Positions 5,926 through 53,730 of a stretch of 64,000 nucleotides of DNA are shown one piece after another (position 1 is the first letter of the stretch; each line of letters opens with the position of its first letter). Origin of the DNA: Ferruginibacter sp. HRS2-29 (GTDB lineage Bacteria; Bacteroidota; Bacteroidia; Chitinophagales; Chitinophagaceae); contig NZ_RJUB01000162.1 in assembly GCF_024343615.1 (NCBI RefSeq), positions 1-64,000 on the forward strand. The letters run 5' to 3'. The position numbers were made by a program, and so were the translations under genes. Under the pieces are notes generated by a model, which was not told the DNA's origin, searched no databases, and worked only from the letters and a program-made list of their open reading frames with translations.

Positions 5926-5929
5926 TTTA

Positions 5930-6074
5930 GTGAATAGGGAATAGTCAATAGTGAAACCTTCGATAGGTTGTTCATGAAGGCGGGTTTTAGTCAGATTTTT
6001 ATAGAACTGTTTTTGAAAAGCTTCGGTTGACTTTATAAACGTTAAAGTTTTGACTATTGCCTATTCACTATTGA
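5930..6074. repeat. Palindrome of GAATAGTCAATAGTG repeats between divergent genes
   Basis: The left arm GTGAATAGGGAATAGTCAATAG (in pieces, about 5930-5953) pairs with TGACTATTGCCTATTCACTATTGAC words at about 6051-6074. The arms are about 95 nt apart. It lies between the lpdA promoter and the start of the thioredoxin-like gene. Confidence 0.8.
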
Positions 6075-6097: not shown

Positions 6098-6583
6098 ATG
6101 AAAAAAGCATTCCTCATCCTCTCCCTCATCACTTTATCCATAGCGGCCAACAGCCAATCCATCAAAAAGTATAAGATCACCGATATTGAAAAATACATCG
6201 CCACTTCAAAAGATTCGGTACTGGTGATCAATTTCTGGGCTACTTTCTGCAAACCATGCGTGGCAGAAATACCATCGTTCATCAAAGTAACGGACCAGTA
6301 TAAACACCGTGGCGTGAAACTATTACTCGTAAGCCTCGACCTGCCGGCATTTTACCCCGCAAAGATCGCCAGCTTCGCAAAGGCGCACAATTTTACCTCC
6401 ACCATCGTGTGGCTCGACGAAACCAATGCGAATTATTTCTGTCCGAAGATCGATCCTAAATGGAGTGGATCCATCCCGGCCACGTTGATCGTCAATAAGA
6501 AAACGGGGTACAGGAAATTTTTTGAGGAAGAAATGGAAGAGAAGAAGTTTGAAGAAGAATTGAAGGCTGCCATAGGAAACTAG
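6098..6583 (+). CDS. TlpA-like periplasmic thioredoxin-fold protein
   Basis: 161 residues from MKKAFLILS; the ATG at 6098 is chosen because it opens a clear signal peptide (cleavage near ANSQS) and lies 4 nt after a promoter-like TACCTTTG. The mature part has the active-site segment NFWATFCKPCVAE with Cys51 and Cys54, followed by the usual cis-Pro region before TLIVNKKTG. The family handles thiol-disulfide exchange in the periplasm, for example for cytochrome maturation or as a resident reductase; the partner is unknown. Single gene, followed by a cloverleaf element. Confidence 0.85.
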   Translation: MKKAFLILSLITLSIAANSQSIKKYKITDIEKYIATSKDSVLVINFWATFCKPCVAEIPSFIKVTDQYKHRGVKLLLVSLDLPAFYPAKIASFAKAHNFTSTIVWLDETNANYFCPKIDPKWSGSIPATLIVNKKTGYRKFFEEEMEEKKFEEELKAAIGN

Positions 6584-6589
6584 AGAGCG

Positions 6590-6751
6590 ATCACGGATTT
6601 TAAATTGATTAGGCGATTACACAGATTATATTTTGCTGGCGCAAAATAAAAATGCAGTTTATAAAGTAATTCAACTTTTATAAACTGCATTTTTATTTTT
6701 ACGAAGTAAAAATCATCTGTGTAATCGCCTAATCAATTTAAAATCCGTGAT
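6590..6751. repeat. Cloverleaf-type composite palindrome (complete copy)
   Basis: The outer arms (6590-6626 and 6715-6751) are a perfect 37-bp inverted repeat starting ATCACGGATTTTAAATTG. Inside are three hairpins: a left side arm ATTTTGC-TGGC-GCAAAAT, an apical stem of 22 bp around AATGCAGTTTATAAA (about 6644-6665 with 6677-6698), and a right side arm TTTTTAC-GAA-GTAAAAA. The whole folds like a four-way junction. It separates the convergent tlpA-like and purE genes. It has no coding potential and no anticodon-like logic, so it is not a tRNA. Confidence 0.9.
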
Positions 6752-6768
6752 GCTGATCTTTGATATCT

Positions 6769-7245
6769 TTATTTGATTCCCTTAAGCACATCCAGTTCGA
6801 GCTGCTTTTTATATCCATCCAGTTTCTCTGCTACCACATTATCATTCGCGCCAATGATCTGTGTAGCCAATATCCCCGCATTCCTGGCCCCATTCAATGC
6901 TACCGTTGCCACCGGTACTCCGCCCGGCATCTGGAGGATAGACAGTACCGAATCCCATCCATCAATGGAATTAGACGATTTTACCGGCACGCCTATCACC
7001 GGCAGGCTGGTATAAGCAGCCACCATGCCAGGAAGATGTGCCGCACCGCCTGCCCCGGCAATGATCACCTTCAGTCCGCGGCCACGGGCTTCCATAGCAT
7101 AAGTACGCATACGGTCGGGTGTGCGATGCGCCGAAACGATGGTGATCTCGTACGGTATTTCAAACTGCTGAAGCATTTTTTCGGCTTCCTGCATCACAGG
7201 CATATCGCTCTGGCTGCCCATTATGATCCCTACTATTGGTTGCAT
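6769..7245 (-). CDS. purE: N5-carboxyaminoimidazole ribonucleotide mutase
   Basis: 158 residues, the length of class I PurE. It converts N5-CAIR, made by PurK, to CAIR in purine synthesis. Signatures are GSQSDMPVM near the N-terminus, SAHRTPDRM, and the substrate loop [19 protein letters not shown]. The partner gene purK is also on the minus strand but 6 kb away, beyond the RND operon, rather than adjacent as in many bacteria. Upstream is a TAGGGATTAG-type palindrome shared with the divergent efflux operon. Confidence 0.96.
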
Positions 7246-7295
7246 CGGGTTATTTTTTACGCAAAGAACGACAAAAATTCTACATGTTTGTAATA

Positions 7296-7360
7296 GTTTA
7301 GGGATTAGGGAATAGAGTTTAGTGTCCTGACGCCGAAACTCTGATCCCTAAACACTAATC
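7296..7360. repeat. Palindrome of TTTAGGGATTAGGG repeats between divergent genes
   Basis: The left arm GTTTAGGGATTAGGGAATAG...(7296-7320) pairs with AAACTCTGATCCCTAAACAC words at 7336-7360. It sits between the divergent purE and efflux-adaptor genes. Related words recur at 20641 and 63701. Confidence 0.8.
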
Positions 7361-7437
7361 TTCCTGTTATATCAACTTTAAATCATATCTCGCTACCATT
7401 CATATTATTGCGCCCGGCTTATCTTGGCAAACTGTTT

Positions 7438-7445
7438 TATATTTG
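7438..7445 (+). promoter_or_regulatory. Possible -7 box of the RND efflux operon
   Basis: TATATTTG fits TAnnTTTG and would give a leader of about 20 nt, but I see no TTTG at the expected -33 distance. Confidence 0.35.
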
Positions 7446-7470
7446 GCTTAATATTTATTAAATAGATGTA

Positions 7471-8556
7471 ATGAATTATCCTTCTAAATTCCTGGCAGCC
7501 GTATGCTCGCTGGTGATCTTGTTTTCTGCCTGCAAGGGCAAATCGAAAAAATCGGATAAGCCGAAAGAAAATCCTCCTACTGTAGTCGACGTCATGATAG
7601 CCCAACCTCAGCCCATCAGTAATGTAGTGGAAGCCAATGGTACCGTGCTGGCTGGAGAATACGTAGAACTTCGGCCTGAAGTAAGCGGCCGCCTCACCTA
7701 TCTCAACATTCCGGAAGGTAAGCCTGTGGCAAAAGGGCAGGTTCTGGCAAAGATCAACGATGCCGATCTGCGTGCACAGATCGGCAAAAGCAGGGTGCAA
7801 CTCGACCTCGCCATTAAAACTGTAGAACGTTATAAAAAACTGGTGGACGTAGGCGGGATCAATCAGAGTGATTACGACCTGGCAGTGAATTCCGTGAACG
7901 GTTACCGGGCGGATATTGCCTACACTGAATCGCTGATCGCTAAAACGGTGATAAGGGCGCCTTTTTCAGGTATCGCCGGTTTAAGGCAGGTGAGCCCGGG
8001 CGCTTATGTATCGGCTGCCACCATCCTGGCTACCATCCAGCAACTCAGCCAGGTAAAGATCGATTTCACTTTGCCGGAAGCTTATGGCAATATCATCAGG
8101 ATCGGTTCAGATATCGACGTTTACCTGAATACTGATACCGCTACGGATAAAGTAAAAGCAACCATCATAGCGATGGAGCCGGGTGCCAATACGGATACCC
8201 GCAACCTGAAAGTAAGGGCAATGCTGGACAAAGGTACAGTAAGCCCGGGGGCTTTCGTAAAAGTGAAGATCGATGCCGGAAAGAACAGGAATTCCATAGT
8301 TGTGCCTACCAATGCTATCATTCCGGATGACAAAAGCAACCAGGTGATCGTAGTGAAAAACGGGATCGCCAATTTCGTAAATGTACAGACCGGCAATCGC
8401 GAAGCGAATACGGTAGAGATCATTTCGGGACTGAACCAGGGAGATTCCATTGTGGTGACCGGTGTATTGTTTGCCCGTCCGAAAAGTAAATTAAAAGTAC
8501 GTGGGGTGAAAAAGATCAATGAGCTGCAGCCGGCAGATTCCTCGAAAGCACAATAA
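7471..8556 (+). CDS. RND efflux periplasmic adaptor (membrane fusion protein), lipoprotein
   Basis: 361 residues. A lipobox LVILFSAC with Cys21 predicts a lipid-anchored protein. Barrel-sandwich halves (VSGRLTYLNIPEGKPVAKGQ and VIRAPFSGIAGLRQVSPGAY) flank a short helical hairpin, then beta-barrel and membrane-proximal domains (NAIIPDD, GLNQGDSIVVTG). It links the inner-membrane pump to the outer-membrane channel encoded by the next two genes. A GGATAAT palindrome of about 110 nt separates it from the pump gene. Confidence 0.92.
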   Translation: MNYPSKFLAAVCSLVILFSACKGKSKKSDKPKENPPTVVDVMIAQPQPISNVVEANGTVLAGEYVELRPEVSGRLTYLNIPEGKPVAKGQVLAKINDADLRAQIGKSRVQLDLAIKTVERYKKLVDVGGINQSDYDLAVNSVNGYRADIAYTESLIAKTVIRAPFSGIAGLRQVSPGAYVSAATILATIQQLSQVKIDFTLPEAYGNIIRIGSDIDVYLNTDTATDKVKATIIAMEPGANTDTRNLKVRAMLDKGTVSPGAFVKVKIDAGKNRNSIVVPTNAIIPDDKSNQVIVVKNGIANFVNVQTGNREANTVEIISGLNQGDSIVVTGVLFARPKSKLKVRGVKKINELQPADSSKAQ

Positions 8557-8559
8557 GTA

Positions 8560-8672
8560 AATGGATAACGGAATAATGGATAATGGATAATTTTCCCGAG
8601 AGAAAAACCTTTCAATATTTGTACTGCGTTCCGGCTGAAAACATTATCCATTATCCATTATAAAATTATCAA
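8560..8672. repeat. Palindrome of GGATAATGGATAAT repeats inside the efflux operon
   Basis: The left arm starts right after the adaptor stop codon (ATGGATAACGGAATAATGG, ATAATGGATAATT); the right arm (8641-8672) reads ATTATCCATTATCCATTAT. It lies between two genes that should be co-expressed, so it either reads through or gives stepwise expression. Confidence 0.85.
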
Positions 8673-8692
8673 TTTAAAAACCTACGGTTTTT

Positions 8693-11600
8693 ATGAATAT
8701 ATCAGAATTATCACTAAGAAGGCCTGTAGGTGCAGCAGTACTCAACCTGATGATCATCCTGTTCGGTATTGTCGGGTTTACTTTCCTGGCCATCCGCGAT
8801 TACCCTGCTATCGATCCGGCGGTGATCAGCATCAGCACTTCTTATACAGGTGCCAATCCTGATATCATCGAGAGCCAGATCACGGAGCCGCTGGAAAAAC
8901 AGATCAATGGTATCCCGGGGATTAAAACCATCACTTCCTCCAGTTCGCTGGGTAGCAGCAATATTTCCGTGGAGTTTGAGCTGGGCGTGGACCTGGAAGC
9001 CGCGGCAAGTGATGTGCGTGACAAAGTAGGCCAGGCCAGCCGCAGCCTTCCGCAGGATATCGATGCGCCACCGGTGGTGACAAAAGCTGATGCCAACAGT
9101 GATTTCATCCTGATACTGGCCGTGCAAAGCCGCACCAAAGGCTTGCTCGAACTGAGTGATTATGCAGAAAACGTGCTGCAGCAACAGTTTCAGACGATCA
9201 ATGAAGTGAGTTCGGTAAATATATTCGGGCAAAAAAGATACGCGATGCGCCTCTGGCTCAACCCGGATAAGATGGATGGTTTCGGCGTTTCATTTACCGA
9301 TATCCGTACAGCACTCAATACCGAAAATATCGATCTGCCGCCCGGCAAAATTTATGGTAACAACACCGAGCTCACCATCAAAACAGTCGGCAGGCTAACA
9401 TCCGAAAAAGAATTCCAGGATCTCATCATCCGCGAAGACAGTGCAGGAATAGTGCGATTGAAGGATGTGGCAAGAGTGGAAATAGGCCCTGAAACGCTGG
9501 AACAAAGCTGGAAATACAATGGTGTTAACGCGGTAGGGTTGGTGATCATTCCGCAACCCGGCGCCAACAATATCCAGATAGCCGATGATTTCAACAAAAA
9601 ACTGGAGCAGATAAAAAAGAACAATAAGTCGGATATCGAAATGAATATCCTGCTCGACAATACCAGGAATATACGGAAGTCCATCAGCGAAGTGGAGGAA
9701 ACGCTGTTCATCTCTTTCGGGTTTGTAGTACTCGTGATCTTCTTCTTCTTCCGCGACTGGCTTATCGCCATTCGTCCGTTGATCGATATCCCGATCTCGC
9801 TGGTAGCCACTTTCTTCATCATGTACATTTCCGGGTTCTCGGTAAATATATTGACGCTGCTCGGTATCGTACTGGCCACGGGACTTGTGGTGGATGATGG
9901 TATTGTGGTCACGGAGAATATCTTCCGGAAAGTGGAAGAGGGGTTACCGATCAAACAGGCGGCGCTGGAAGGAAGCAAGGAAATTTTCTTCGCGGTTATT
10001 TCCACTTCCATCACACTGGCGATCGTGTTCCTGCCCGTGATCTTCCTCGAAGGTTTCATCGGGCGGCTTTTCCGCGAATTTGGTGTTACGCTGGCCGCAG
10101 CAGTATTGATCTCGGCATTGGTATCACTAACGATCACGCCTGTACTGAATGTGGTGCTCAGCCGCAAAAAACCAGGCCATGGAAAATTCTACATGAAGAC
10201 GGAACCGTTTTTTCAGGGAATGGAAAACGGGTACAAACGCTGGCTCACGGGTTTTCTCAAAGTGCGTTGGATCGCATTGCTGGTCATAGTGGTTTGTGGT
10301 GGAATGATCTGGCTTATCGGGGGAAGCCTTCAGAGTGAGATCGCGCCGCTGGAAGACAGGAGCAGCATACGTTTTACCGTTACTGCACCTGAAGGAACGA
10401 GTTACAGTAAAATGCAAAGGACGGCGGATGATATCAGCAATTACCTGTATGATTCAGTTCCGGAGAGGGATTTCGTTTTTGCCCGTACGCCGGCAGGTGC
10501 CATCAATAGTACGCAACCCAGGTTGGCGCTCGTTGATCCGGGAGACCGCGATCGTTCGCAGAATGATATAGCAAATGACCTGAACAGGAAAATGGCGCGG
10601 TTCAATGATGCAAAAATATTTGCCATCCAGGAACAGACGATCGCCGTGGGCGCCGGTTCCAGGGGGAGTTTGCCGGTGCAGTTCGTTCTGCAAAACCAGG
10701 ACCTGGAAAAAATGAAGGAAGATATTCCTAGGTTTTTGGATGAAGCCAGAAAGGATAAGACATTCTCTAACGTGGATGTGAACCTTAAATTCAACAAGCC
10801 TGAAATTGAACTGACTGTCGACCGGATGAAAGTGAAAGATCTCGGTCTTTCTTCGCAGGACGTGGTATCGGCCATTCAATCCGCTTTCAGCGGAGGAAGG
10901 CTGGCATACTTCTTAAAAGATGGCCGGCAATATTCGGTGATCGCTCAGGTAGAACGAAGCGACCGGGATAAACCCGATGATATTTCACGCCTGTATGTAC
11001 GCAACAACAAAGGCCAGAGCATACCATTGAGTGCCGTAATAAAACTGGAAGAAAGCAGCAGCCCGCCTTCGTTGTATCACTTTAACCGGTATAAAGCGGC
11101 TACTATTTCCGCATCACTTTCCGAAGGACATACAGTGGGAGATGGTATCAAAGCGATGGAAGCCATCAGGTCAAAGATCCTCGATGAGTCTTACCTGACG
11201 GCCCTTTCGGGGCCTTCGAGGGATTATTCGGAGAGTTCCTCAAATATCCTGTTCGCTTTTTTACTGGCATTGGTATTGATCTATCTTGTATTGGCTGCGC
11301 AATTTGAAAGTTTCGTAGATCCACTCATCATCATGATCACGGTGCCGCTGGCATTGGCGGGTGCATTGTTAAGCCTTTCGATATTTGGCCAGACATTGAA
11401 TATATTTTCCGAGATAGGCATGATCATGCTTATAGGACTTGTAACAAAGAACGGTATCCTTATCGTAGAATTCGCGAATCAGAAGAGAGAAGAGGGCCAT
11501 ACAAAATATGAAGCCATTCTGATCGCTTCGCAACAAAGGTTGCGCCCGATCCTGATGACCAGCCTTGCTACTTCGTTTGGTGCATTGCCTATTGCATTGA

Positions 11601-11902
11601 GCCTTGGCGCTGCCTCTACGAGCCGTGTACCATTAGGGATAGTGGTAGTAGGGGGTATCATTTTCTCTTTGATACTTACGTTGTTTGTGATACCTGCCAT
11701 GTACACTTTCCTTTCCAGGAGCAAGCAGCATCAGCATAAGGAAGTGGATGAATTTACTGGTAAAAAGATCGTTTCTGAAAAACATGAGACAATACAGCCG
11801 GAAGTTGTGGATGAAAACACGACACTATCAGATACGGATGATCAGAAAAAAAATACAGACGATAACGGAGCATTTTCAAAAGAGGATGTGCCCGGAAAAT
11901 AA
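8693..11902 (+). CDS. RND (HAE1-type) multidrug efflux pump, inner-membrane subunit
   Basis: 1069 residues. It exports hydrophobic or amphiphilic compounds using the proton gradient. The first membrane helix starts near residue 12; the proton-relay pair Asp401-Asp402 lies in TGLVVDDGIVVTENIF, and a Lys in GLVTKNGILIVEFANQ corresponds to the relay lysine of AcrB. The duplicated 6-helix plus large periplasmic-loop layout is complete. The last 60 or so residues form an acidic, low-complexity cytoplasmic tail that most AcrB proteins lack. Middle gene of adaptor-pump-channel. Confidence 0.95.
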   Translation: MNISELSLRRPVGAAVLNLMIILFGIVGFTFLAIRDYPAIDPAVISISTSYTGANPDIIESQITEPLEKQINGIPGIKTITSSSSLGSSNISVEFELGVDLEAAASDVRDKVGQASRSLPQDIDAPPVVTKADANSDFILILAVQSRTKGLLELSDYAENVLQQQFQTINEVSSVNIFGQKRYAMRLWLNPDKMDGFGVSFTDIRTALNTENIDLPPGKIYGNNTELTIKTVGRLTSEKEFQDLIIREDSAGIVRLKDVARVEIGPETLEQSWKYNGVNAVGLVIIPQPGANNIQIADDFNKKLEQIKKNNKSDIEMNILLDNTRNIRKSISEVEETLFISFGFVVLVIFFFFRDWLIAIRPLIDIPISLVATFFIMYISGFSVNILTLLGIVLATGLVVDDGIVVTENIFRKVEEGLPIKQAALEGSKEIFFAVISTSITLAIVFLPVIFLEGFIGRLFREFGVTLAAAVLISALVSLTITPVLNVVLSRKKPGHGKFYMKTEPFFQGMENGYKRWLTGFLKVRWIALLVIVVCGGMIWLIGGSLQSEIAPLEDRSSIRFTVTAPEGTSYSKMQRTADDISNYLYDSVPERDFVFARTPAGAINSTQPRLALVDPGDRDRSQNDIANDLNRKMARFNDAKIFAIQEQTIAVGAGSRGSLPVQFVLQNQDLEKMKEDIPRFLDEARKDKTFSNVDVNLKFNKPEIELTVDRMKVKDLGLSSQDVVSAIQSAFSGGRLAYFLKDGRQYSVIAQVERSDRDKPDDISRLYVRNNKGQSIPLSAVIKLEESSSPPSLYHFNRYKAATISASLSEGHTVGDGIKAMEAIRSKILDESYLTALSGPSRDYSESSSNILFAFLLALVLIYLVLAAQFESFVDPLIIMITVPLALAGALLSLSIFGQTLNIFSEIGMIMLIGLVTKNGILIVEFANQKREEGHTKYEAILIASQQRLRPILMTSLATSFGALPIALSLGAASTSRVPLGIVVVGGIIFSLILTLFVIPAMYTFLSRSKQHQHKEVDEFTGKKIVSEKHETIQPEVVDENTTLSDTDDQKKNTDDNGAFSKEDVPGK

Positions 11903-11911
11903 AAACAAGGA

Positions 11912-13210
11912 ATGAAAAAGAAATTTTTTCTAATAAATAGTTTTATTGTTTTCGCCTTTGGTGCAAACGCCCAATCCCTGCAATTGCAGGATGCGGTTAA
12001 CATTGCGCTCAAAAACAGCCTGGATATTCAACTGGCAAAAAACAGGATAGAAGCGGACAGTATCCTTAACCACATCGGTGTTGCCGGTGGCTTGCCCCTG
12101 GTTACCGGTACATTGAGCGATAATGAATCGATCACCAGTGTAAACCAGAAACTCAATACTGGTGCGGAGATCAGGCGTAACAATGCAGCGACCAATAATT
12201 TTGGTGCAGGCGTTACCGGTAGTATTCTTTTGTATAATGGAGGAAGGGTAGTAGCTACCAAAAAACGCCTCGGTGAATTACAATTGCAAAGTAAGGAACT
12301 GCTCAATTCACAGGTGCAGAACATACTGGCAGATGTGATGCTTGGTTATTATGATGTAGTACGCCAGCAGAATTATATAAAAACGATCGAGCAGTCGATC
12401 GAAGCATCCAACAAACAGCTCGACATTGTGAAGATCCGTCGCGAAGTAGGCCTGGCTAACAATGCGGATCTTTTCCAGGCGCAGATCGACCTGAATGTAT
12501 TACAGCAATCAAAGCTTGCACAGCAATTGGTGATCGATCAGGCGAAAGCCGAATTACTTCGGCAGCTTACATTGAAAGCGGATTCAGCCATCACCATAAA
12601 TGATACAATTCTTGTAGATAAAGGCGTGCAGCTGGAAAATATCATGAACAGCCTTACCAAAAATGCGGATATCAAGGCGGCGGAAAACCAGATCAGGATC
12701 AATGAACTGATCGTAAAAGAAACTGCGGCACTGCGTTACCCTTCTGTGAGGGCTACTACGGGCTATAATTTCAGCCGGAACCAGGCAGCAGCCGGTAACC
12801 TTTTGCTCAATCAGAATTTTGGCCCTACCGTCGGTATAAGTGTGGCGATACCTATTTACAATGGCTCTGCATTCCGCCGTCAGCAAGAGGTTGCGAAGAT
12901 CGATGTACGTAATGCAGGTATACAGAAAGATATATTGCTCAGGGATTACAATGCCGAAGTGGTGAAACAATTTCATGCTTACAGCAACACTTTGAGCCAA
13001 CTGGATACTGCCGTGCAGAATTATCAGTTATCAGAAAAATTGCTCGACCTGGCGCTCCTGCGATTTGAATACAAACAAGCAACTATCGTAGAAGTAAAAA
13101 ATGCCCAACAGAGTTTCGTAGAATCAGGCTACCGGTTGGTAAACCTGAATTTTGCGGCTAAGTCTTCCGAAATACAATTGAAGAGACTGGCAAATACACT
13201 TACTTTTTGA
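11912..13210 (+). CDS. TolC-like outer-membrane efflux channel
   Basis: 432 residues with a signal peptide ending at GANAQS. Two outer-membrane-efflux-protein repeats are visible, each starting with a LQDAVNIALKNSLDIQLAKN-type helix and rich in long amphipathic helices; the second repeat begins near ENIMNSLTKNADIKAAENQ. The start lies 9 nt after the pump stop codon, so the two are translationally close. Completes the tripartite pump. The stop codon is followed within 15 nt by a cloverleaf element. Confidence 0.93.
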   Translation: MKKKFFLINSFIVFAFGANAQSLQLQDAVNIALKNSLDIQLAKNRIEADSILNHIGVAGGLPLVTGTLSDNESITSVNQKLNTGAEIRRNNAATNNFGAGVTGSILLYNGGRVVATKKRLGELQLQSKELLNSQVQNILADVMLGYYDVVRQQNYIKTIEQSIEASNKQLDIVKIRREVGLANNADLFQAQIDLNVLQQSKLAQQLVIDQAKAELLRQLTLKADSAITINDTILVDKGVQLENIMNSLTKNADIKAAENQIRINELIVKETAALRYPSVRATTGYNFSRNQAAAGNLLLNQNFGPTVGISVAIPIYNGSAFRRQQEVAKIDVRNAGIQKDILLRDYNAEVVKQFHAYSNTLSQLDTAVQNYQLSEKLLDLALLRFEYKQATIVEVKNAQQSFVESGYRLVNLNFAAKSSEIQLKRLANTLTF

Positions 13211-13223
13211 TCTAAGCCAAAGG

Positions 13224-13390
13224 GGATCGCAGATTTCAAAGGGATGGAGGGGATTGCACAGATTATTTTTACTCCGTAAAAACAGAAATGCAGTTTGTAA
13301 GATTTTTACTAATCTTACAAACTGCATTTTCGTTTTGCGCCAGCAAAACAATCTGTGCAATCCCCTTCATCCCTTTGAAATCTGCGATCC
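13224..13390. repeat. Cloverleaf-type composite palindrome (complete copy)
   Basis: The outer arms 13224-13264 and 13350-13390 are a 41-bp inverted repeat with one mismatch (GGATCGCAGATTTCAAAGGG...). The left side hairpin is TTTTTAC-TCC-GTAAAAA (13266-13282); the apical stem is a perfect 19 bp with a 6-nt loop (13286-13304 / 13311-13329); the right side hairpin is GTTTTGC-GCCA-GCAAAAC (13332-13349). Compared with the 6590 copy, the GCAAAA-type hairpin is now on the right and the GTAAAA-type on the left. Confidence 0.92.
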
Positions 13391-13412
13391 TTGCTCGCTT
13401 CAATCTCCGCTC

Positions 13413-13438
13413 AAATTCTTAATTCTTAATTCTTAATT
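13413..13438. repeat. Heptamer run (AATTCTT)n overlapping the purK stop codon
   Basis: Three and a half copies of AATTCTT follow the TCGCTTCAATCTCCGCTC flank also seen in the element at position 1. The TAA stop of purK (complement of 13433-13435) is read from this run. Confidence 0.85.
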
Positions 13439-14557
13439 GGATATTACCTTAATTACGTGCTTAATCTGATTCGCTTTATGCAGCAATTCCTGCTTCTCGC
13501 TGCTCAGGATCGTAATATGCCCCATCTTTCTTCCGGGCTTTGTTTGCGTTTTGCCATAAATATGAACAAACACATTATCCATTGCCAGCACTTTATCAAG
13601 ACCATCGTACACAGCCGGCCCCGAATGTCCGGGTTCGCCGATCAGGTTTACGATGGCTGCAGGAAGTATATGATCCGTATTTCCCAATGGATAGCCCAGC
13701 ATGATGCGCCACAGCATATCGAACTGGCTGCTGTAGTTGGCTTCGATAGTATGGTGGCCGCTGTTGTGCACCCGTGGCGCAGTTTCGTTTACCCATACGT
13801 TATCATCGATATCGGCAAATAATTCTATCGCGAATATACCCGGACTTTTCAATTGTTTAACCACTTTCAACGCGATGGCTTCGGCTTTCCAGAAAACTTT
13901 CTCCGGCAATTCAGCCGGGCTGATCTGGTAGTTGAGGAGGTTGAGGCGCTGGTCAAACACCATGTCGACCGGCGGATAAATGGCGGTCTCACCGTCTTGC
14001 GATATCGCAATGATCACCGCAATTTCCTTTTTGATATGCACCAGTTTTTCAAGCACCGAGGGGGCATCAAAACCTGAAGGGATATCTTCCGTTTTTTTCA
14101 ACAACTGAACACCTTTGCCATCATATCCGCCAAGGGCGAGTTTATGTGCCGCCGGTAAAAAATCTCCATGACCCTGTAATTCCGAAAGGTTATTCGTGAT
14201 CACAAAATCGCTGGTGGGGATCTCGTTTTCTTTGTAAAACTGTTTCTGTAAAATTTTATTCCTGATGATCCTTAACGCCGAAGGCTTCGGTAAAACTTTC
14301 ACGCCTTCTGACTCCAGTTTTTCCAACGCTTCAAGGTTCACGCTTTCAATCTCTATAGTAAGTACATCCAGGCCTTTGCCAAAATTATAAACATCATCAA
14401 AATTGGTGATATCACCTTTGGTAAAATGCCCGCAAAGATGCGCCGCCGGGCACTCTGCATCGTTTTCCAATACATAAGTTTCAACAGGATAATTGGCAGC
14501 TGCCTGCAACAACATCCTTCCCAATTGCCCCCCCCCTAATATGCCCGCTTTTTTCAT
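13433..14557 (-). CDS. purK: N5-carboxyaminoimidazole ribonucleotide synthase
   Basis: 374 residues. An ATP-grasp enzyme that carboxylates AIR with ATP and bicarbonate; its product is the substrate of PurE encoded at 6769. Visible are the N-terminal GILGGGQLGRMLLQAA, the ATP-grasp glycine loop LGGYDGKGVQLL, FAIELFADIDDNVWVNETAPRVHNSGHHTIEA (cut: ELFADIDDNVWVNETAPR, HNSGHHTIEA), and the C-terminal domain with GRKMGHITIL. Monocistronic on the minus strand. The C-terminal end IKVISN and stop lie against a heptamer run. Confidence 0.96.
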   Translation of the reverse strand: MKKAGILGGGQLGRMLLQAAANYPVETYVLENDAECPAAHLCGHFTKGDITNFDDVYNFGKGLDVLTIEIESVNLEALEKLESEGVKVLPKPSALRIIRNKILQKQFYKENEIPTSDFVITNNLSELQGHGDFLPAAHKLALGGYDGKGVQLLKKTEDIPSGFDAPSVLEKLVHIKKEIAVIIAISQDGETAIYPPVDMVFDQRLNLLNYQISPAELPEKVFWKAEAIALKVVKQLKSPGIFAIELFADIDDNVWVNETAPRVHNSGHHTIEANYSSQFDMLWRIMLGYPLGNTDHILPAAIVNLIGEPGHSGPAVYDGLDKVLAMDNVFVHIYGKTQTKPGRKMGHITILSSEKQELLHKANQIKHVIKVISN

Positions 14558-28597: not shown

Positions 28598-28779
28598 ATC
28601 GCAGATTATTAAGGGATGAAGGGGATTGCACAGATTATTTCCTGCAGGCAGGAAATGAAAATGCAGTCGGTACAAGTTTGTTCCATTTTAAGGGGTATCA
28701 ATTTTCACCAACTGCATTTAAATTTTTACGAAGTAAAAATAATCTGTGCAATCCCCTTCATCCCTTAATAATCTGCGAT
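28598..28779. repeat. Cloverleaf-type composite palindrome (complete copy)
   Basis: The outer arms 28598-28639 and 28738-28779 are a perfect 42-bp inverted repeat (ATCGCAGATTATTAAGGGAT...). The left side hairpin is TTTCCTGC-AG-GCAGGAAA, the apical stem is about 13 bp with one mismatch (AAATGCAGTCGGT / ACCAACTGCATTT) and a long loop, and the right side hairpin is TTTTTAC-GAA-GTAAAAA. It is flanked on the left by AATTAAG heptamers and GATCGAAGC, and on the right by a long heptamer run. Confidence 0.92.
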
Positions 28780-29037: not shown

Positions 29038-29808
29038 ATGAATCTAAAAAAGCTGCATTTTTTTGGCATTGTATCAGTAGCTACCTGCTTCAGTATCAAT
29101 GTATCCGCTCAAGGCGCCAGTGCGCCCGATTTTAAATCGATGAATTCGCGTGCATCGGTTGTTTTCAGCAAAAAAGAAGATTCTGTAAGGGCTCAGTTTG
29201 AAAAACAAAAGCTGACCTGGCCACCAGAAGCTATGTATGTACGTTCCTTTAAATATGATCGCCAGCTGGAAGTGTGGGTAAAAGGAAATGCCGGGGAGCC
29301 GTACAAACTTTTTAAAACGTATAAGGTTTGTATGCAAAGCGGCACAATGGGGCCCAAAAGGGTAGAAGGCGATTACCAGGTGCCGGAAGGTTTTTATTAC
29401 ATCAACGAATTCAATCCGAACAGTAATTTTCATCTTTCGCTCGGGCTTAATTATCCGAATGCTTCTGACCGCATCCTCAGCGATTCACTCAGGCCGGGCA
29501 GTGCAATATATATCCATGGAAATTGTGTGAGCACCGGCTGCATCCCTATCAGCGACGAACCGATTGAAGAGTTGTACATTATCGCTTCTTATGTAAAAGC
29601 AAATGGACAGGAGTTCATTCCTGTGCACGTTTTCCCGGTCCGGTACAACGTAAAAAAATCTACTGAATATCTCGCAACCACCATCAAGGATAATGCTTAT
29701 CTGCAGCAGTTCAACAAGAATATCAAAGAAGTTTTTGATTATTTTGAAACAAAGAAACAGCTGCCGGTTATTATGGTCAATAAAAGAGGCGAATACGTAT
29801 ACAATTAA
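29038..29808 (+). CDS. Murein L,D-transpeptidase, YafK-like (YkuD domain)
   Basis: 256 residues from MNLKKLHFFG, chosen as the start of the signal peptide (cleavage after NVSAQ). The catalytic region reads IYIHGNCVSTGCIPISDEP, the His...Ser-x-Gly-Cys motif of YkuD enzymes. An upstream KVCMQSGTMGPKRVEGD strand-turn and GFYYINEFNPNSNFHLSLG are as in YafK/ErfK relatives. It makes or breaks links to peptidoglycan meso-diaminopimelate. Single gene; the stop codon runs into heptamers and a terminator. Confidence 0.88.
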   Translation: MNLKKLHFFGIVSVATCFSINVSAQGASAPDFKSMNSRASVVFSKKEDSVRAQFEKQKLTWPPEAMYVRSFKYDRQLEVWVKGNAGEPYKLFKTYKVCMQSGTMGPKRVEGDYQVPEGFYYINEFNPNSNFHLSLGLNYPNASDRILSDSLRPGSAIYIHGNCVSTGCIPISDEPIEELYIIASYVKANGQEFIPVHVFPVRYNVKKSTEYLATTIKDNAYLQQFNKNIKEVFDYFETKKQLPVIMVNKRGEYVYN

Positions 29809-29816
29809 GAATTGAT

Positions 29817-29922
29817 AATTACGAATTACGAATTGTCTTTTAATAGAAAGGCCTTCATCGTTTGAAATGCTTCAAAAGATGAAGGCCTTTAATTTTATAG
29901 AACCATTCGTAATTCGTAATTG
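29817..29922. repeat. AATTACG heptamer palindrome enclosing a bidirectional terminator
   Basis: The outer arms AATTACGAATTACGAATT (29817-29834) and ATTCGTAATTCGTAATT (29906-29922) flank a hairpin at 29847-29890. It lies between two convergent genes. Confidence 0.85.
29847..29890. terminator. Bidirectional rho-independent terminator
   Basis: AAAGGCCTTCATC / GATGAAGGCCTTT forms a 13-bp stem with a further inner TTTGAA-ATGC-TTCAAA stem. A-rich and T-rich flanks allow use from both strands, as fits the convergent L,D-transpeptidase and aspartate kinase genes. Confidence 0.85.
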
Positions 29923-31188
29923 TTAATTCCTGATCAGCATTTGTACCGTTGTCATCGTCTTCTGCTGCAGCACCACCACCTTATCATTCGTCAGCAGATC
30001 GATCGTAGCTTCATCATAATGCCTGATCGTTATCAGCGAAAGATTTTTCTCCAGTTCAACATCAAATATTTCAGACGCGTCGGATGCCAGCTGAGCGATC
30101 TTTTCTTCCTTATCATCAAAACAACAGAGCAAAGAGATCGCGGTATTTTGTGAAAGGTTCGGACTGATCTTAATGTTGTCATAGATGCCGTGAAGCTGCT
30201 CTACTGGCTTGTCTTCCACGAAAGAGAAATCTTTTGATTTGAATTGTATCAGCACCTGGTTATCCTTTACCACAATCACTGGTGGAAGGTTTTTAGCAGC
30301 CTTGCCATCAATCACGGTTCCTTCAAGCGTCGGATCCAGGAAACTTTTTACCAGTAACGGAATGTTCTTATTCTGCAATGGCTTGATCGTTTTGGGATGG
30401 ATCACCTGCGCACCATAATAAGCCATCTCGATCACTTCGGTGTAACTCAGGTGATGGATGTTGGTGGCGCTAGGAAATACTTTGGGATCGGCACTCATCA
30501 CCGCTTCCACATCTTTCCAGATAGTTACGGAATCAGCTTTCAGCAGGTTGGCAAAAATCGCCGCCGTATAATCGCTCCCTTCGCGGCCAAGCGTGGTGCT
30601 TTCATTTTCATCGGTGCTGCCGATAAACCCCTGCGTGATAATGACATCGTATTTATCAAAAAGCGGTGAAATATTTTCAGCGATATTCTTTTCCGTAAAA
30701 TCCCAGTCGATGCCCGCGTCGCGGAAATTGTTATCTGTGCGGATCACATCCCTCACATCTATCCACGTGGCGTTGGCCTTTTCTTCCACGAGATAATTAC
30801 ACAACAGGCTGCTGCTGAAAAGTTCGCCGCAGCAAACGATCTGGTCGTAATAATAATCGTAACCACGAACGGGTTTGTCGTGAAGCAGCCATTCTATTTC
30901 TGTAAAAAAATCCTTGAGCTGATTCTCCGCATGTAGCCATTGAACGGTGGTAAGAAATTTGACCAGTTGCAGATGGTTTTCTTTGATACCTTCAAATAAT
31001 TTCAATGCATCTTCCTGCCTGCCTTCAAAAAAAGCATTCACCACAGATTCCAGTGCATTGGTGGTTTTGCCCATGGCAGAAACTACTACGAGCAGTTTTT
31101 CGCCGGCATGCTGCTGAATGATTTTGCCCGTATTTTTTATCCTCTCGAGATTGTTGATACTTGCCCCGCCAAATTTATATACTTTCAT
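29923..31188 (-). CDS. Aspartate kinase
   Basis: 421 residues, monofunctional. It phosphorylates aspartate, the first step to lysine, threonine, methionine and diaminopimelate. Visible are MKVYKFGGASINN at the N-terminus, VVVSAMGKTTNAL, the catalytic TTLGREGSDYTAA, and MSADPKVFPSA; the last 130 residues carry two ACT-like regulatory segments (VLIQFKSKDFSFV, LSLITIRHYD), so feedback control is likely but the effector cannot be told. No homoserine dehydrogenase fusion. A repeat palindrome starts 3 nt upstream of its ATG. Confidence 0.93.
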   Translation of the reverse strand: MKVYKFGGASINNLERIKNTGKIIQQHAGEKLLVVVSAMGKTTNALESVVNAFFEGRQEDALKLFEGIKENHLQLVKFLTTVQWLHAENQLKDFFTEIEWLLHDKPVRGYDYYYDQIVCCGELFSSSLLCNYLVEEKANATWIDVRDVIRTDNNFRDAGIDWDFTEKNIAENISPLFDKYDVIITQGFIGSTDENESTTLGREGSDYTAAIFANLLKADSVTIWKDVEAVMSADPKVFPSATNIHHLSYTEVIEMAYYGAQVIHPKTIKPLQNKNIPLLVKSFLDPTLEGTVIDGKAAKNLPPVIVVKDNQVLIQFKSKDFSFVEDKPVEQLHGIYDNIKISPNLSQNTAISLLCCFDDKEEKIAQLASDASEIFDVELEKNLSLITIRHYDEATIDLLTNDKVVVLQQKTMTTVQMLIRN

Positions 31189-31190
31189 AA

Positions 31191-31310
31191 ATGTATGATG
31201 TGTGATGTAGGATGTATGATCTATGGCTTCTCCGGTAGGAGCTGACTATAATTTTTTGAAGTCTTTACAAAATGAAAGACATCATACATCATACGTCATA
31301 CATCACACAT
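31191..31310. repeat. Palindrome of ATGATGTATGATGT-type repeats between divergent genes
   Basis: The left arm 31191-31224 (ATGTATGATGTGTGATG, GGATGTATGAT) pairs with 31281-31310 (ATCATACATCATACGTC, ATACATCACAC). It lies between divergent aspartate kinase and fbp genes, so both leaders would contain part of it. Confidence 0.85.
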
Positions 31311-31368
31311 CTTTTGTACTTTTGATGTGCAAATCTAACTTCGTAAACTGTAAACAGAAAATTGTTTT

Positions 31369-34162: not shown

Positions 34163-34689
34163 TGGAAGAATTAAAATATCCCATAGGGAAATATGTTGAG
34201 CAGCCATATTCTGACAAGCAATTGCAGGAATGGCTGCTTGACATTATGACCCTTCCCAACAGGCTCGAATATGCCGTGCTCAATCTTGATGAAGCACAAT
34301 TGCAGACGCCTTACAGGCCCGGTGGCTGGACGGTGCACCAGGTAGTGCATCATGTGGCCGATAGTCACGTAAACGCATACACGCGTTTCAAGCTCGGGCT
34401 CACGGAAGATAACCCTGCCATCAAACCTTATGATGAAGAAGCATGGGCCGAACTTAGTGATACCACAAACCTGCCTGTCAATATTTCGCTCACCTTATTG
34501 CATGCGTTGCATAAGCGTCTGCACGAAGTCGTTAGCAACATAAAAAGCGGGCAATGGCAACGAACCATCTACCACCCGGGTTCTCAGCAGCAGATGACAC
34601 TCTGGTACCTGCTGGGCTTGTATGCATGGCATGGAAAACATCATACAGCGCATATACTGACGCTGAGGGATAGGGAGAAATGGTGGTAA
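34162..34689 (+). CDS. DinB/YfiT-like putative metal-dependent hydrolase
   Basis: 175 residues. A four-helix DinB-fold protein of the YfiT/BstA type. The three expected metal ligands are visible as histidines in GGWTVHQVVHHVADSH (first) and WHGKHHTAHILTL (two more). Relatives act as bacillithiol or other thiol transferases, or have unknown hydrolase activity. Starts within the stop codon of the FKBP gene. The stop codon is followed at once by AATTACG heptamers. Confidence 0.85.
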   Translation: MEELKYPIGKYVEQPYSDKQLQEWLLDIMTLPNRLEYAVLNLDEAQLQTPYRPGGWTVHQVVHHVADSHVNAYTRFKLGLTEDNPAIKPYDEEAWAELSDTTNLPVNISLTLLHALHKRLHEVVSNIKSGQWQRTIYHPGSQQQMTLWYLLGLYAWHGKHHTAHILTLRDREKWW

Positions 34690-34691
34690 TC

Positions 34692-34841
34692 AATTACGAA
34701 TTACGAATTACGAATTACGAATTACGAATTACGATAGAATTTTTGCGTCGCAAATTATAAAATAAATAAAACAAAAATTGATTAGAATTACCAACCGAAT
34801 GTCTCCCATTCGTAATTCGTAATTGATAATTGATAATTAAT
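34692..34841. repeat. AATTACG heptamer palindrome
   Basis: The left arm has six copies of AATTACG (34692-34733). The right arm (34808-34841) has two copies of ATTCGTA and then AATTGAT units, ending 1 nt before the Nudix ATG. Thus both a stop codon and a start codon border the element. Confidence 0.9.
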
Positions 34842-38444: not shown

Positions 38445-38496
38445 GTGTCATCCTGAGCTTGTCGAAGGATATCCTTCGACAAGCTCAGGATGACAC
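38445..38496. repeat. Perfect 52-bp palindrome (CCTGAGCTTGTCGAAGGAT family)
   Basis: Positions 38445-38470 and 38471-38496 are exact reverse complements with no spacer. The core word TCATCCTGAGCTTGTCGAAG is one I know as recurring between genes of many unrelated bacteria. In RNA it would give a hairpin of about 24 bp after the e(P4) phosphatase gene, but without a T-run. Confidence 0.93.
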
Positions 38497-39043: not shown

Positions 39044-40540
39044 ATGAAAATAAAATCTTTTTTAGCAAAACCCCTGGCATCTTATATCCATAAACAGATC
39101 AGGAAAGGGATGGTCACCGCGGTGGCTGATCAGCAACAGATCTTACAGCAATTGGTCAAGACAGGGCTGAAGACCCAGTTTGGCGCCGATCATCAATTTT
39201 CCGAAATAAAAACATACGAGGATTTTGTGCAGCATGTGCCCATCCGCGATTATGAGGCATTTAAGCCTTATATCGAAAAAGTGAAAGAAGGAAAACATAA
39301 TATCCTCTGGAAAGGATTGCCCATTTATTTTGCCAAAACAAGCGGCACTACCAGCGGCGCCAAATATATTCCCATCACCAAAGAAAGTATTCCCAACCAT
39401 ATCAATACTGCCCGCAACGCTTTGTTGTGTTACATGGCGGAAACAGGCAACAGTAATTTCGCCGATGGAAAACTGATCTTTCTCAGTGGTTCGCCCGTAC
39501 TGGAACGAGTGGGAGGTGTGCCGACAGGCCGCCTGAGTGGCATCGTTAATCACCATGTTCCGAAATATCTGCGGGCCAACCAGATGCCTTCTTACGAAAC
39601 GAATTGTATTGAAGACTGGGAAGAAAAGCTGGATAAGATTGTAGACGAAACTATCAACCAGAACATGACGCTCATCAGTGGCATACCCCCATGGATGCAG
39701 ATGTATTTCGACCGGCTGGAAGAACGTTCCGGCAAGAAGATCGGCGAATTGTTTCCCAATTTCAGCGTGATGGTGCAGGGTGGGGTAAATTTTGAACCCT
39801 ACAAAGCGAAGCTTACAGAAAGTATCGGCCGCAATATAGATACTATAGAATTATTTCCGGCCAGCGAAGGCTTTTTCGCCTTCCAGGATACGCAAAAAGC
39901 ACCGGGCATGTTGTTGAATACCAACAGCGGGATATTTTTTGAGTTTATCCCTATGACGGAATACGATAAGGAAAACCCGAAAAGGATCATGCTGAAAGAT
40001 GTGGAAGTGGGGGTGAACTATGCCCTGATCGTGAGCAGCAATGCAGGTTTGTGGGCATACAACATCGGCGATACGGTGAAGTTCGTTTCCACAGAGCCAT
40101 ACCGGCTTGTAGTGACCGGGCGTACCAAACATTTCATTTCGGCCTTTGGCGAACATGTGATCGTGGAAGAAGTGGAAGATGCCATGATGAAAGCTGCTGA
40201 GCAGGAAAAAGTGGCGGTAAGGGAGTTTACAGTAGCACCATACATTGCACAGGAAGAAGGAAAAAGTTATCATGAATGGTTCGTGGAGTTTGAAGAAGCG
40301 CCCAAAGACCTGGCGACCTTCTCCAAAGCCATCGACGATAACCTGCGCAAGAAAAATACTTATTATGAAGACCTGATAGCCGGAAATATCCTCGAAAGGC
40401 TGAAGATCACACCTATCAAAAAGAACGGGTTCCTGGATTATATGAAAAGCATCGGCAAGCTTGGCGGGCAAAATAAAGTGGCCCGGCTGGGAAATGACAG
40501 AAAGATAGCGGATGCGCTTTCTGAATGGATAATGAAGTAA
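39044..40540 (+). CDS. GH3-family acyl-adenylating protein
   Basis: 498 residues. The GH3 family is best known for plant acyl-acid amido synthetases. The adenylate-forming motifs are visible: YFAKTSGTTSGAKYIPITKE (ATP loop), ELFPASEGFFAFQ, and VVTGRTKHFISAFGEHV with the C-terminal domain lysine near KKNGFLDYMK. It presumably activates a carboxylic acid with ATP and joins it to an amine; substrates in Bacteroidota are not known to me. Its last codons (tgg ata atg) already belong to the GGATAATG repeat that follows. Confidence 0.87.
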   Translation: MKIKSFLAKPLASYIHKQIRKGMVTAVADQQQILQQLVKTGLKTQFGADHQFSEIKTYEDFVQHVPIRDYEAFKPYIEKVKEGKHNILWKGLPIYFAKTSGTTSGAKYIPITKESIPNHINTARNALLCYMAETGNSNFADGKLIFLSGSPVLERVGGVPTGRLSGIVNHHVPKYLRANQMPSYETNCIEDWEEKLDKIVDETINQNMTLISGIPPWMQMYFDRLEERSGKKIGELFPNFSVMVQGGVNFEPYKAKLTESIGRNIDTIELFPASEGFFAFQDTQKAPGMLLNTNSGIFFEFIPMTEYDKENPKRIMLKDVEVGVNYALIVSSNAGLWAYNIGDTVKFVSTEPYRLVVTGRTKHFISAFGEHVIVEEVEDAMMKAAEQEKVAVREFTVAPYIAQEEGKSYHEWFVEFEEAPKDLATFSKAIDDNLRKKNTYYEDLIAGNILERLKITPIKKNGFLDYMKSIGKLGGQNKVARLGNDRKIADALSEWIMK

Positions 40541-40641
40541 TGGATAATGGATAATCAGTTCACAAAATTGGTGATCCAATATTTTTACAACGTTTAAAAT
40601 GAAAACATTATCCATTGTCCATTATTAAATTATCCATTATT
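40539..40641. repeat. Palindrome of GGATAATGGATAAT repeats
   Basis: The left arm AATGGATAATGGATAAT (40539-40555) starts at the GH3 stop codon; the right arm 40607-40641 has ATTATCCATTGTCCATTATT and another ATTATCCATTATT. Confidence 0.85.
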
Positions 40642-46948: not shown

Positions 46949-48044
46949 TCCGAAAATAAATAGCTTATATGAAGATGCTGTGAAATTATTGCAGCAACTG
47001 ATCAGCATTCCGTCATTGAGCCGGGAAGAAGATAAGACTGCGCTGGCGATTGAGAACTTTCTTCATCAAAAAAATATTGTTGCCGATCGTGCAATGAACA
47101 ATGTTTGGGCCACCAACAGATTTTTTGATGCATCCAGGCCATCCATCCTGCTAAACTCACATCACGACACGGTTCCGGCGAATTCCAAATACAGTAATGA
47201 TCCGTTTGATCCAAAAATAGAAGAGGGTAAATTATTCGGATTGGGAAGTACGGATGCCGGTGCATCGTTGGTTAGCCTCCTGGCTTGTTTCATTTATTTT
47301 TACGAAAAAAAAGACCTGCCTTTCAATATTGTTTTTGCTGCAAGCGCTGAAGAGGAAATCAGTGGTGCTAACGGGATTGAAAAATTATTCAGCGAAAAGA
47401 GTTTCAACGATCTTTTTAAAAATGAAAACAGCTTCGCGATTGTTGGCGAACCTACACAGCTGGAACTGGCTGTTGCTGAAAAAGGCTTGCTGGTACTGGA
47501 TTGTACTGCAAATGGAAAAGCCGGGCATGCTGCAAGAGAGGAAGGTGATAATGCTATCTATAAAGCCATCGCGGCCATTGAATGGTTCAAAGCATATCGT
47601 TTTGATAAAGTTTCCCCATTGCTGGGCGAAGTAAAAATGACGGTAACGTCCATTCATACAGAAAACAAAGCGCACAATGTAGTGCCCGCCACCTGTAGCT
47701 TTGTGGTAGATGTCCGTGTGACGGAAATGTATACTCACCAGGAGATCATACAAACCATCAATCAATATGTGGAAGTGGATGTAAAAGCAAGAAGTACAAG
47801 ATTGCGTTCATCTTACATCACTGAAGATCATCCAGTAATAAGGGCCGGGAAGAAACTGGGTAAAAAAATATACGGTTCACCTACCTTATCCGACAAAGCG
47901 CTGATACCATTACCTGCTCTTAAATGCGGCCCTGGATTCAGCGCTCAAAGCCATAGTGCGGATGAGTTTGTATTGTTGAATGATATAAAGCAGGGAGTTG
48001 GATTTTATATAGAACTTCTGGAGGAATTAATAATTAATAATTGA
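46941..48044 (+). CDS. argE: M20-family deacylase of the arginine pathway (ArgE-like)
   Basis: 367 residues from the ATG that overlaps the end of argB by 8 nt. Metal-binding motifs of the M20 family: LLNSHHDTVPAN, GLGSTDAGASLVS, FAASAEEEISGANG. With ArgF' upstream, the natural substrate should be N-acylcitrulline rather than N-acetylornithine (inference from pathway order). The C-terminal residues ELIINN and the TGA stop are encoded by an AATTAAT tandem repeat. Confidence 0.88.
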   Translation: MNDPKINSLYEDAVKLLQQLISIPSLSREEDKTALAIENFLHQKNIVADRAMNNVWATNRFFDASRPSILLNSHHDTVPANSKYSNDPFDPKIEEGKLFGLGSTDAGASLVSLLACFIYFYEKKDLPFNIVFAASAEEEISGANGIEKLFSEKSFNDLFKNENSFAIVGEPTQLELAVAEKGLLVLDCTANGKAGHAAREEGDNAIYKAIAAIEWFKAYRFDKVSPLLGEVKMTVTSIHTENKAHNVVPATCSFVVDVRVTEMYTHQEIIQTINQYVEVDVKARSTRLRSSYITEDHPVIRAGKKLGKKIYGSPTLSDKALIPLPALKCGPGFSAQSHSADEFVLLNDIKQGVGFYIELLEELIINN

Positions 48045-48169
48045 TAATTAATAATTCTTTCGAAGGAAAATCTTTTAAAATAGGGTTCTGTCTTAAGTTT
48101 TAAAAGTCCAATAAAACAATAATGTATCAACCTGAAACATTATTAATTATTAATTATTAACTATTAATT
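48025..48169. repeat. AATTAAT heptamer palindrome
   Basis: The left arm 48025-48056 (AATTAATAATTAATAATTG...) includes the end of argE; the right arm 48139-48169 (ATTATTAATTATTAATTATT...) ends 2 nt before the argH start codon. It fills the whole argE-argH gap. Confidence 0.88.
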
Positions 48170-52203: not shown

Positions 52204-52356
52204 ATTACGAATTACGAATTACGAATTACGAATTACGAATTACGAATTACGAATTACGAATCAATTTTTTGCTCCGCAAGTTAAATCATATAATCATTCA
52301 TGAGAATAGCTTTGCGAATGAACACATTCGTAATTCGTAATTCTTAATTCATAATT
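52203..52356. repeat. AATTACG heptamer palindrome
   Basis: The left arm has eight perfect AATTACG copies (52203-52259) starting inside the rseP stop codon; the right arm (52323-52356) is ATTCGTAATTCGTAATTC followed by TTAATTCATAATTATT. Unequal arm lengths suggest that each arm expands on its own. Confidence 0.9.
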
Positions 52357-52360
52357 ATTT

Positions 52361-52663
52361 ATGCGTTTTCTGGCAAAACTCACCCTCATCTTCAACGTCT
52401 GCTTTCTCCTGTGGGTGCTCGGCTATGTGATCGAGATATTTCATAAAGTGAAAGGCAGCAGCAACGGGCAACTGGATACGCACCCGCTGTTGAGTAGTAT
52501 TGTGGTATTAGGAGTGGTATCTATTTTTATCAATGTATTTTTTGTGATTCTTTTCCTGGCAAGATTTTCTTCAAAAAAAATGAACAATATCCCGCGGTGG
52601 ATCGTTTATTTCAATCTTATAATACTGCCCATGCAGATATATTTTTATTTTATCAGCAAATAA
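52361..52663 (+). CDS. Small integral membrane protein of unknown function
   Basis: 100 residues with three predicted membrane helices (about 5-27, 45-68, 78-97) and a short charged loop (KVKGSSNGQLDTHP). No motif recognised. It sits 7 nt before the queuosine-precursor transporter gene and is probably co-transcribed; it might assist it, but nothing in sequence shows that. Its leader consists of heptamer repeats. Confidence 0.65.
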   Translation: MRFLAKLTLIFNVCFLLWVLGYVIEIFHKVKGSSNGQLDTHPLLSSIVVLGVVSIFINVFFVILFLARFSSKKMNNIPRWIVYFNLIILPMQIYFYFISK

Positions 52664-53637: not shown

Positions 53638-53655
53638 GAGTTCAAAAGTTGAAAA

Positions 53656-53710
53656 AGTTCAAGAGTTCAAAAGTTGTTCCTGCCGGAAGCAACTTTTGAA
53701 CCCTTGAACT
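53656..53710. repeat. Palindrome of AGTTCAAGAGTTCAAAAG repeats
   Basis: The arms 53656-53676 and 53690-53710 are 21-bp reverse complements with one mismatch (AGTTCAAGAGTTCAAAAGTTG), extended outwards by more GTTCAA/TTGAAC units. It lies between convergent genes. Confidence 0.88.
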
Positions 53711-53730
53711 TTTTTTGAACCTTGAACCTT

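Follow-up and report, generated by a model that had tools for sequence, protein, structure and literature searches.

In the window (the whole 64,000-nt stretch of Ferruginibacter sp. HRS2-29 DNA analysed here), we found a cloverleaf palindromic element in four complete copies and half of a fifth. On balance, they probably belong, as non-autonomous members without a gene, to a palindromic mobile element that encodes a GxxExxY protein in its full form. The initial annotation had described a cloverleaf family at positions 1, 6590, 13224, 28598 and 57392, and this family was confirmed by an independent scan for paired arms and by whole-genome counts. The copies and the parts of the 6590 copy are as follows:

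6590–6751, no strand assigned: gene-less element (6590 copy), outer arms 6590–6626/6715–6751 with 37 of 37 positions paired in the independent scan
6630–6647, no strand assigned: class II side hairpin of the 6590 copy, ATTTTGC-TGGC-GCAAAAT
6648–6694, no strand assigned: apical stem of the 6590 copy, AATGCAGTTTATAA / TTATAAACTGCATT, whose position is taken by the GxxExxY gene in locus L005
6695–6713, no strand assigned: class I side hairpin of the 6590 copy, ATTTTTAC-GAA-GTAAAAAT
13224–13390, no strand assigned: gene-less element (13224 copy), arms 13224–13269/13345–13390 with 44 of 46 paired, class I hairpin left and class II right (inverted relative to the 6590 copy)
28598–28779, no strand assigned: gene-less element (28598 copy), arms 28598–28640/28737–28779 with 43 of 43 paired, class II hairpin left and class I right
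57394–57579, no strand assigned: gene-less element (57392 copy), two different arm alleles, with AATTAAGAAT words outside on both sides
about 1–62, no strand assigned: half copy, the right half of a further copy, with ATTCGTAATTCGT repeats to its right

The copy at position 1 consists of a right half only because the window edge cuts it. The 57392 copy folds like the other copies, but its two arms are not identical and it was missed by the arm scan. Directly outside the 28598 copy, AATTA[CA]GAAT words stand on both sides. The words reported as shared are present in the family, but not each of them occurs in each copy; the 6590 copy has CACGGATT and lacks CGCAGATT. The four full copies sit between ORFs, seven of these eight ORFs having a Pfam domain, and the copies contain no gene. 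That all copies lie outside genes held for 31 of 34 copies, which overlap no ORF of at least 150 aa by more than 20 bp, but this mechanical test also returned three overlaps. Plasmid and phage collections gave no match to 13216–13398, the DNA of one copy.

From the outside in, the element is composed of a purine-rich collar (GCGAAG-like words), arms of about 37–47 bp, two side hairpins and an apical stem, and the collar often lies within an outer AATTACGAATT palindrome. The arm words of the gene-less elements are CACAGATT/CGCAGATT/CACGGATT. To describe the family, we aligned 31 copies, which remained from 36 candidate elements after two were set aside as non-family and three more were omitted. 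Two unlike side hairpins were found at opposite ends, class I with the core AC-NNN-GT and class II with the core GC-NNN-GC; the classes were set by eye from the bases closing the loop, the class I hairpin of L010 being imperfect and the class II hairpin of L011 degenerate. The results showed that 29 of the 31 copies carry a mixed pair and two carry two class II hairpins, while no copy has two class I hairpins or two of the same subtype. When the hairpins were shuffled, a mean of 15.7 mixed pairs was obtained and 29 was never reached in 200,000 trials; zero same-subtype pairs occurred in 47 of the 200,000. Oriented with class II first, the copies aligned cleanly, 14 of them lying in that orientation and 15 in the opposite one, which indicates that the element has a polarity masked by its palindromic arms. 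The anatomy is thus stricter than had been described, with two non-interchangeable side hairpins. The consensus fold of the 31 aligned copies contains 48 pairs, and at 17 of them at least one copy has both paired bases changed; the element folds are very stable.

The arms had also been described as kept matched within each copy. On average this is correct, the identity between the two arms of a copy being 0.893 compared with 0.825 between arms of different copies (31 copies; none of 20,000 permutations as high), but the own arm was the best or tied partner in just 12 of the 31, and several copies combine two different arm alleles. Among the arm mismatches of the 29 oriented copies, we counted 33 G.T, 39 A.C and 30 transversions, with no bias between G.T and A.C (p 0.56); an earlier count with mixed orientations (G.T 34, A.C 44, transversions 35) is unfit for a test of RNA pairing. 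Since RNA pairing of one strand would favour G.T or A.C, the lack of bias makes DNA-level homogenisation, together with exchange among copies, the simpler reading of the arm pattern. Quasi-palindrome correction can make arms match.

Throughout the genome, we counted the 13-base core AATCTGTGYAATC 67 times in forward and 66 times in reverse orientation, and its reversed-pattern control not once. Both cores at the right spacing were found at 32 places, again with a control of zero, and these counts against zero controls exclude chance. The paired core was found in none of 146 other genomes of the family, and the single core was counted 0 to 6 times in each of 39 other genus genomes. A stricter pattern applied to the relatives recovered just five places even from the own genome, and little weight attaches to the zeros it gave elsewhere. 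We also inspected by eye 23 further stretches of the own genome (L235–L257) holding 25 cores, mostly ones without an exact partner, and assigned 18 of these to full copies (two already counted) and seven to half or partial copies. The number of located copies is estimated at about 65, composed of 34 in the set used for flank words, 16 from the further stretches and 15 found by a covariance model and present in neither set. The covariance-model search scored the best 66 candidates per genome and gave at least 36 distinct places in the own genome; two of its places, C7:390 and C17:552, have identical scores and may be one locus. At the contig ends L258 and L260 (G000:C6 and C140), six or seven copies of the element core follow one another in tandem, spaced about 212 bases apart, which could be either tandem amplification or an assembly artefact; part of a stretch similar to these tandem cores reads N in L259.

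Short, dispersed, non-autonomous sequences with inverted-repeat ends, amplified in one genome of those sampled, resemble classical MITEs, whose parent would be a DDE-transposase insertion sequence either lost or still to be found. We consider this origin improbable. In 29 further stretches of the own genome, inverted repeats with these cores enclose at most 207 bases, and a parent insertion sequence was not seen in the fetched stretches. The arms vary between copies in a mosaic manner, and they match a GxxExxY element instead, as described below.

To compare syntenic sites, we measured two gene gaps in relatives. Between the pRiA4b-ORF3-like gene and miaA, the gap is 261 bp here including a 183-bp element (78 bp without it), compared with 0–244 bp in 23 relatives (median 79). 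Between lon and the poly(A)-polymerase/cca-like gene, it is 398 bp here, compared with 66–289 bp, and in one case 1,213 bp, among 26 relatives (median 150). A covariance model (R1) run over 30 fetched loci of both gene pairs found the element only in this genome. The presence of a copy here and of none in the relatives at the two gene pairs suggests, from gap length and model comparison, that the element was probably gained at both in this lineage. A weak R1 hit at the lon–cca pair of L183 (E 0.0039) was rejected because it is a palindrome of another, TTCAAAAGG-type family. In relatives, other palindromes or runs of arm words were observed next to the cca-like gene that neighbours the element here, at about 2976–3043 of L183 (TTCAAAAGG) and about 2940–3010 of L193 (CGCAGAT). 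The suggestion in the initial annotation of a non-autonomous mobile element is therefore well supported by amplification in this genome alone among those sampled, by absence at two syntenic pairs of relatives, and by a gene-bearing relative (below).

The 29 copies whose gene context could be placed comprised 15 convergent, 12 tandem and 2 divergent sites (5 more at an edge) against a background of 46, 125 and 46. This bias, the intergenic position and the very stable folds would fit a domesticated element at gene ends, either a structured RNA or a bidirectional terminator. Promoter avoidance, however, would give the same bias towards convergent sites, the oriented arm mismatches hold no G.T excess, and the element is absent at the syntenic gene pairs of relatives, so we regard a domesticated RNA as unlikely. 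A search of the whole window with Rfam 15 at the gathering threshold gave no match; by E-value, seven sub-threshold hits were obtained in 6500–13500, six of them miRNA hairpins. The RNA landmark considered earlier thus found no positive sign in either Rfam or the mismatches. The initial annotation could not assign the elements to a known class; the link to GxxExxY genes, to which we now turn, supplies one.

Whether GxxExxY genes sit in palindromes was put to the test here. In the own genome, PF13366 gave nine matches at eight loci, one of them a fragment. We collected 117 GxxExxY loci, dropped eight as too short, and scored the best inverted repeat spanning each gene; L003 and L004 are a single locus on two contigs, and one row was dropped. 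For most loci from named GTDB genomes, the gene ends were taken as 2501–2860, which is not the exact match end. The results showed that 61 of 109 loci exceed the 99th percentile obtained from 461 shifted controls (Mann-Whitney p 1.8e-40), namely 6 of 7 in the own genome, 38 of 74 in the named GTDB genomes and 17 of 28 in the genus; the other 48 genes have no strong flanking repeat by the same test. Cross-pairing of the flanks as a null, in which 12 of 82 passed, was replaced by the shifted controls, being too strict because the genomes have arm words in common. The arm words of these loci include CACAGATT, CGCAGAG, CACGAATT and CACAAAG. Protein similarity tracks the arm words over 61 loci (Mantel r 0.312, 0 of 1,000 permutations), also for pairs below 50% identity (r 0.151, 6 of 1,000) and without significance for pairs below 40% (173 of 1,000); L005, L139 and L148 form a cluster with common arm words. 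This correlation could also reflect co-inheritance without recognition.

Four results link these genes to the gene-less elements, the first two from L005, a GxxExxY locus of the own genome whose product matches TIGR04256 at 5.8e-38. Its arms score 27.5 and 23.5 against the arms of the gene-less family, compared with at most 15.5 for the seven other GxxExxY loci of the genome that were tested. Among 4,000 random segments of the same genome, five reached 20, and by inspection four of these were unlisted copies of the family. The L005 arms lie at the edge of the family, not at its centre. A class II hairpin, GATTTTAGC-TGC-GCTAAAATC, precedes the gene and a class I hairpin, AAAATGAC-GAA-GTCATTTT, follows it, and the GAA loop of the latter recurs among the class I hairpins of the gene-less family. 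The hairpin order is that of the gene-less copies (29 of 31 after orientation), with the gene replacing the apical stem; L005 therefore has both the arm words and the hairpin classes of elements that are themselves gene-less. In the relative G016, a GxxExxY gene split into two frames lies between arms that score 26.5 and 18.0 against the 6590 arm. A covariance-model search of relatives, as proposed in the initial annotation, was performed with a model of 31 gene-less copies on 39 other genomes of the genus, and two hits at E <=0.001 were found among the matches listed. The hit in G014 (E 5.9e-6) ends 12 bases 5' of the ATG of a GxxExxY gene, while the hit in G059 (E 4.8e-4) is a CACAGAT palindrome that carries no gene, and the 4.1 kb retrieved there contain no GxxExxY gene. 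Side hairpins on both flanks were found only at L005 and L142 of the 117 loci, both of those at L142 being class II-like, and hairpins showed no enrichment at GxxExxY loci (15 of 117 compared with 56 of 483 controls). We therefore rejected the idea that side hairpins mark GxxExxY loci in general and assign them to one sub-lineage.

To characterise the protein, we modelled a relative, L049, with AF2 (43 sequences; mean pLDDT 94). With Foldseek and VIA-align, its best structural match was 4ic1 (SSO0001, which we take to be a Cas4 protein; Z 9.2), followed by lower matches to lambda exonuclease, BglII, BamHI and Hjc (Z 6.6). Since Foldseek gave no E-value below 0.001 for this model and structural Z values below 8 are common by chance, only the fold class is claimed and no function. 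Across seven aligned GxxExxY proteins of the own genome, H, E, D, E-x-K and Q are invariant. These results point to GxxExxY (TIGR04256/PF13366) as a small protein that, judged from the model, belongs to the PD-(D/E)XK nuclease fold class.

By analogy, the nearest known kind of system is REPIN/RAYT. Both have a palindrome-flanked gene and many gene-less paired palindromes in intergenic DNA, and PMC2817692 and PMC3116915 describe the same overall layout, in which inverted repeats come in pairs, most copies have no gene, and a gene is bordered by the same palindrome. The partner of the present elements would be a PD-(D/E)XK-fold GxxExxY protein, whereas that of REPINs is a Y1 transposase. The elements also differ in being about 160–200 bp long, with long arms that vary between copies, two unlike side hairpins and a polarity. 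In PMC2817692 and PMC3733652, the REP head motif is of the GTAG/CGTC type; the arms of the present elements begin GATCACAG/GATCGCAG, with their true ends lying inside the variable collar. A RAYT-like Y1 transposase had been proposed as the mover, but this palindrome type is missing from the surrounding 1.5 kb or so at all three PF01797 loci in the genome, neither CACAGATT cores nor AATGCAGTTTATAA words being found there with one substitution allowed, and we consider it very unlikely that these are REPIN-like miniature elements moved by RAYT. Two of the three loci have AATTACGAATT-like words about 0.5–0.9 kb away. In L234, a weak Y1_Tnp match at 1093–2037 was observed between 88-nt inverted repeats (72 matching) that are 769 bp apart.

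To analyse the surroundings of the elements, we searched for AATTA[CA]GAAT words within 60 bp outside each copy, and found them on 32 of 68 sides and at 21 of 34 copies, all in palindromic orientation and none the wrong way; 13 of the 34 copies have none. In random controls, the word occurred in 148 of 20,000 segments of 65 bp. The same words also flank a 23S-IVP gene of this genome at L033. The correct orientation of the flank words and their sharing with L033 indicate that the element is often centred in the palindrome of another element, and this nesting may be either sequential insertion or one composite unit. We applied the GxxExxY threshold to 36 IVP (PF05635) loci, left from 37 after one was dropped as too short, and 28 of them scored above it compared with 1 of 139 controls. 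According to PMC4990558, the 23S rRNA intervening sequence takes the place of the small loop that caps an already existing rRNA helix and brings inverted repeats of its own. Like that sequence (S23/IVP), the elements combine a palindrome with a small gene in the related full form and resemble a loop replacement where they lie inside AATTACGAATT palindromes, but the window copies are outside rRNA, have no IVP gene within and have other arm words.

The nesting in other palindromes, the IVP gene family with the same habit and other words, the G059 palindrome that has no nearby gene, and an association that comes without demonstrated enzyme action would also fit GxxExxY genes that are passengers or targets. 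In that case, the palindromes would be moved by another enzyme or by template-switching during replication, and GxxExxY would only home into them. The arm words follow the protein sub-family, however, which is not needed for passengers, and we rate the passenger role as distinctly unlikely. If the elements are instead gene-less members of a GxxExxY-encoding mobile element, we infer nuclease activity, mobilisation in trans and targeting of palindrome tips. The element would extrude as a cruciform or a lagging-strand hairpin, and a nuclease supplied in trans by a gene-bearing copy would recognise either the junction or the arm words. Polarity would come from the inequality of the two side hairpins, which would also stop the core from closing into a plain stem. 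The nuclease would cut at the recognised site and repair would copy or paste the element into new sites, the preferred ones being the tips of other palindromes. Movement by the nuclease with insertion at palindrome tips would be a reasonable mechanism.

GxxExxY genes were found in 28 and 23S-IVP genes in 38 of the 40 genus genomes sampled, and GxxExxY genes also occur in other phyla. We found no job for GxxExxY or 23S-IVP proteins outside rRNA, and no description of dispersed palindromes with GxxExxY or IVP genes in the open-licence PubMed Central literature. Tentatively, the GxxExxY proteins and the 23S-IVP proteins (four-helix bundles) might drive two branches of a single, so far unrecognised class of mobile palindromes in prokaryotes, with arm words of 7–10 bp as identity, gene-less cloverleaf derivatives, and tip insertion leading to nested stacking. 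If both genes ride mobile palindromes, a single mechanism would account for them as well as for a large class of intergenic palindromes now lacking an explanation. A mobile element of this sort would rely on a PD-(D/E)XK-fold protein and not on a known transposase, with insertion guided by DNA shape, and the GxxExxY link would offer a probable role for a widespread gene family whose function is unknown.

Other gene-less palindromes were also observed in the window. The one at 61591–61681 has CGCAGAG/CTCTGCGG words, which are the arm words of the GxxExxY loci L003/L004. Those at 34689–34834, 48025–48169, 52207–52366 and 29804–29934 have AATTACGAATT or AATTAATAATT words, and the AATTACGAATT words are the arm words of the IVP (PF05635) gene at L033. 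At 1330–1525, 8558–8676 and 40524–40638, there are ATAATGGATAATGG palindromes resembling the arms of the IVP locus L034, and the palindromes at 5928–6070, 31191–31311 and 53652–53714 (TAGTGAATAG/AATAGTCAATAGTG, GATGTATGATCTATG and AAGTTCAAGAGTTCAAAAG) are like the arms of the IVP loci L032, L036 and L037. Short, near-perfect GAGCTTGTCGAAGG palindromes of a different repeat family were found at 38445–38496 of the window, 8992–9061 of L010 and 10657–10727 of L013.
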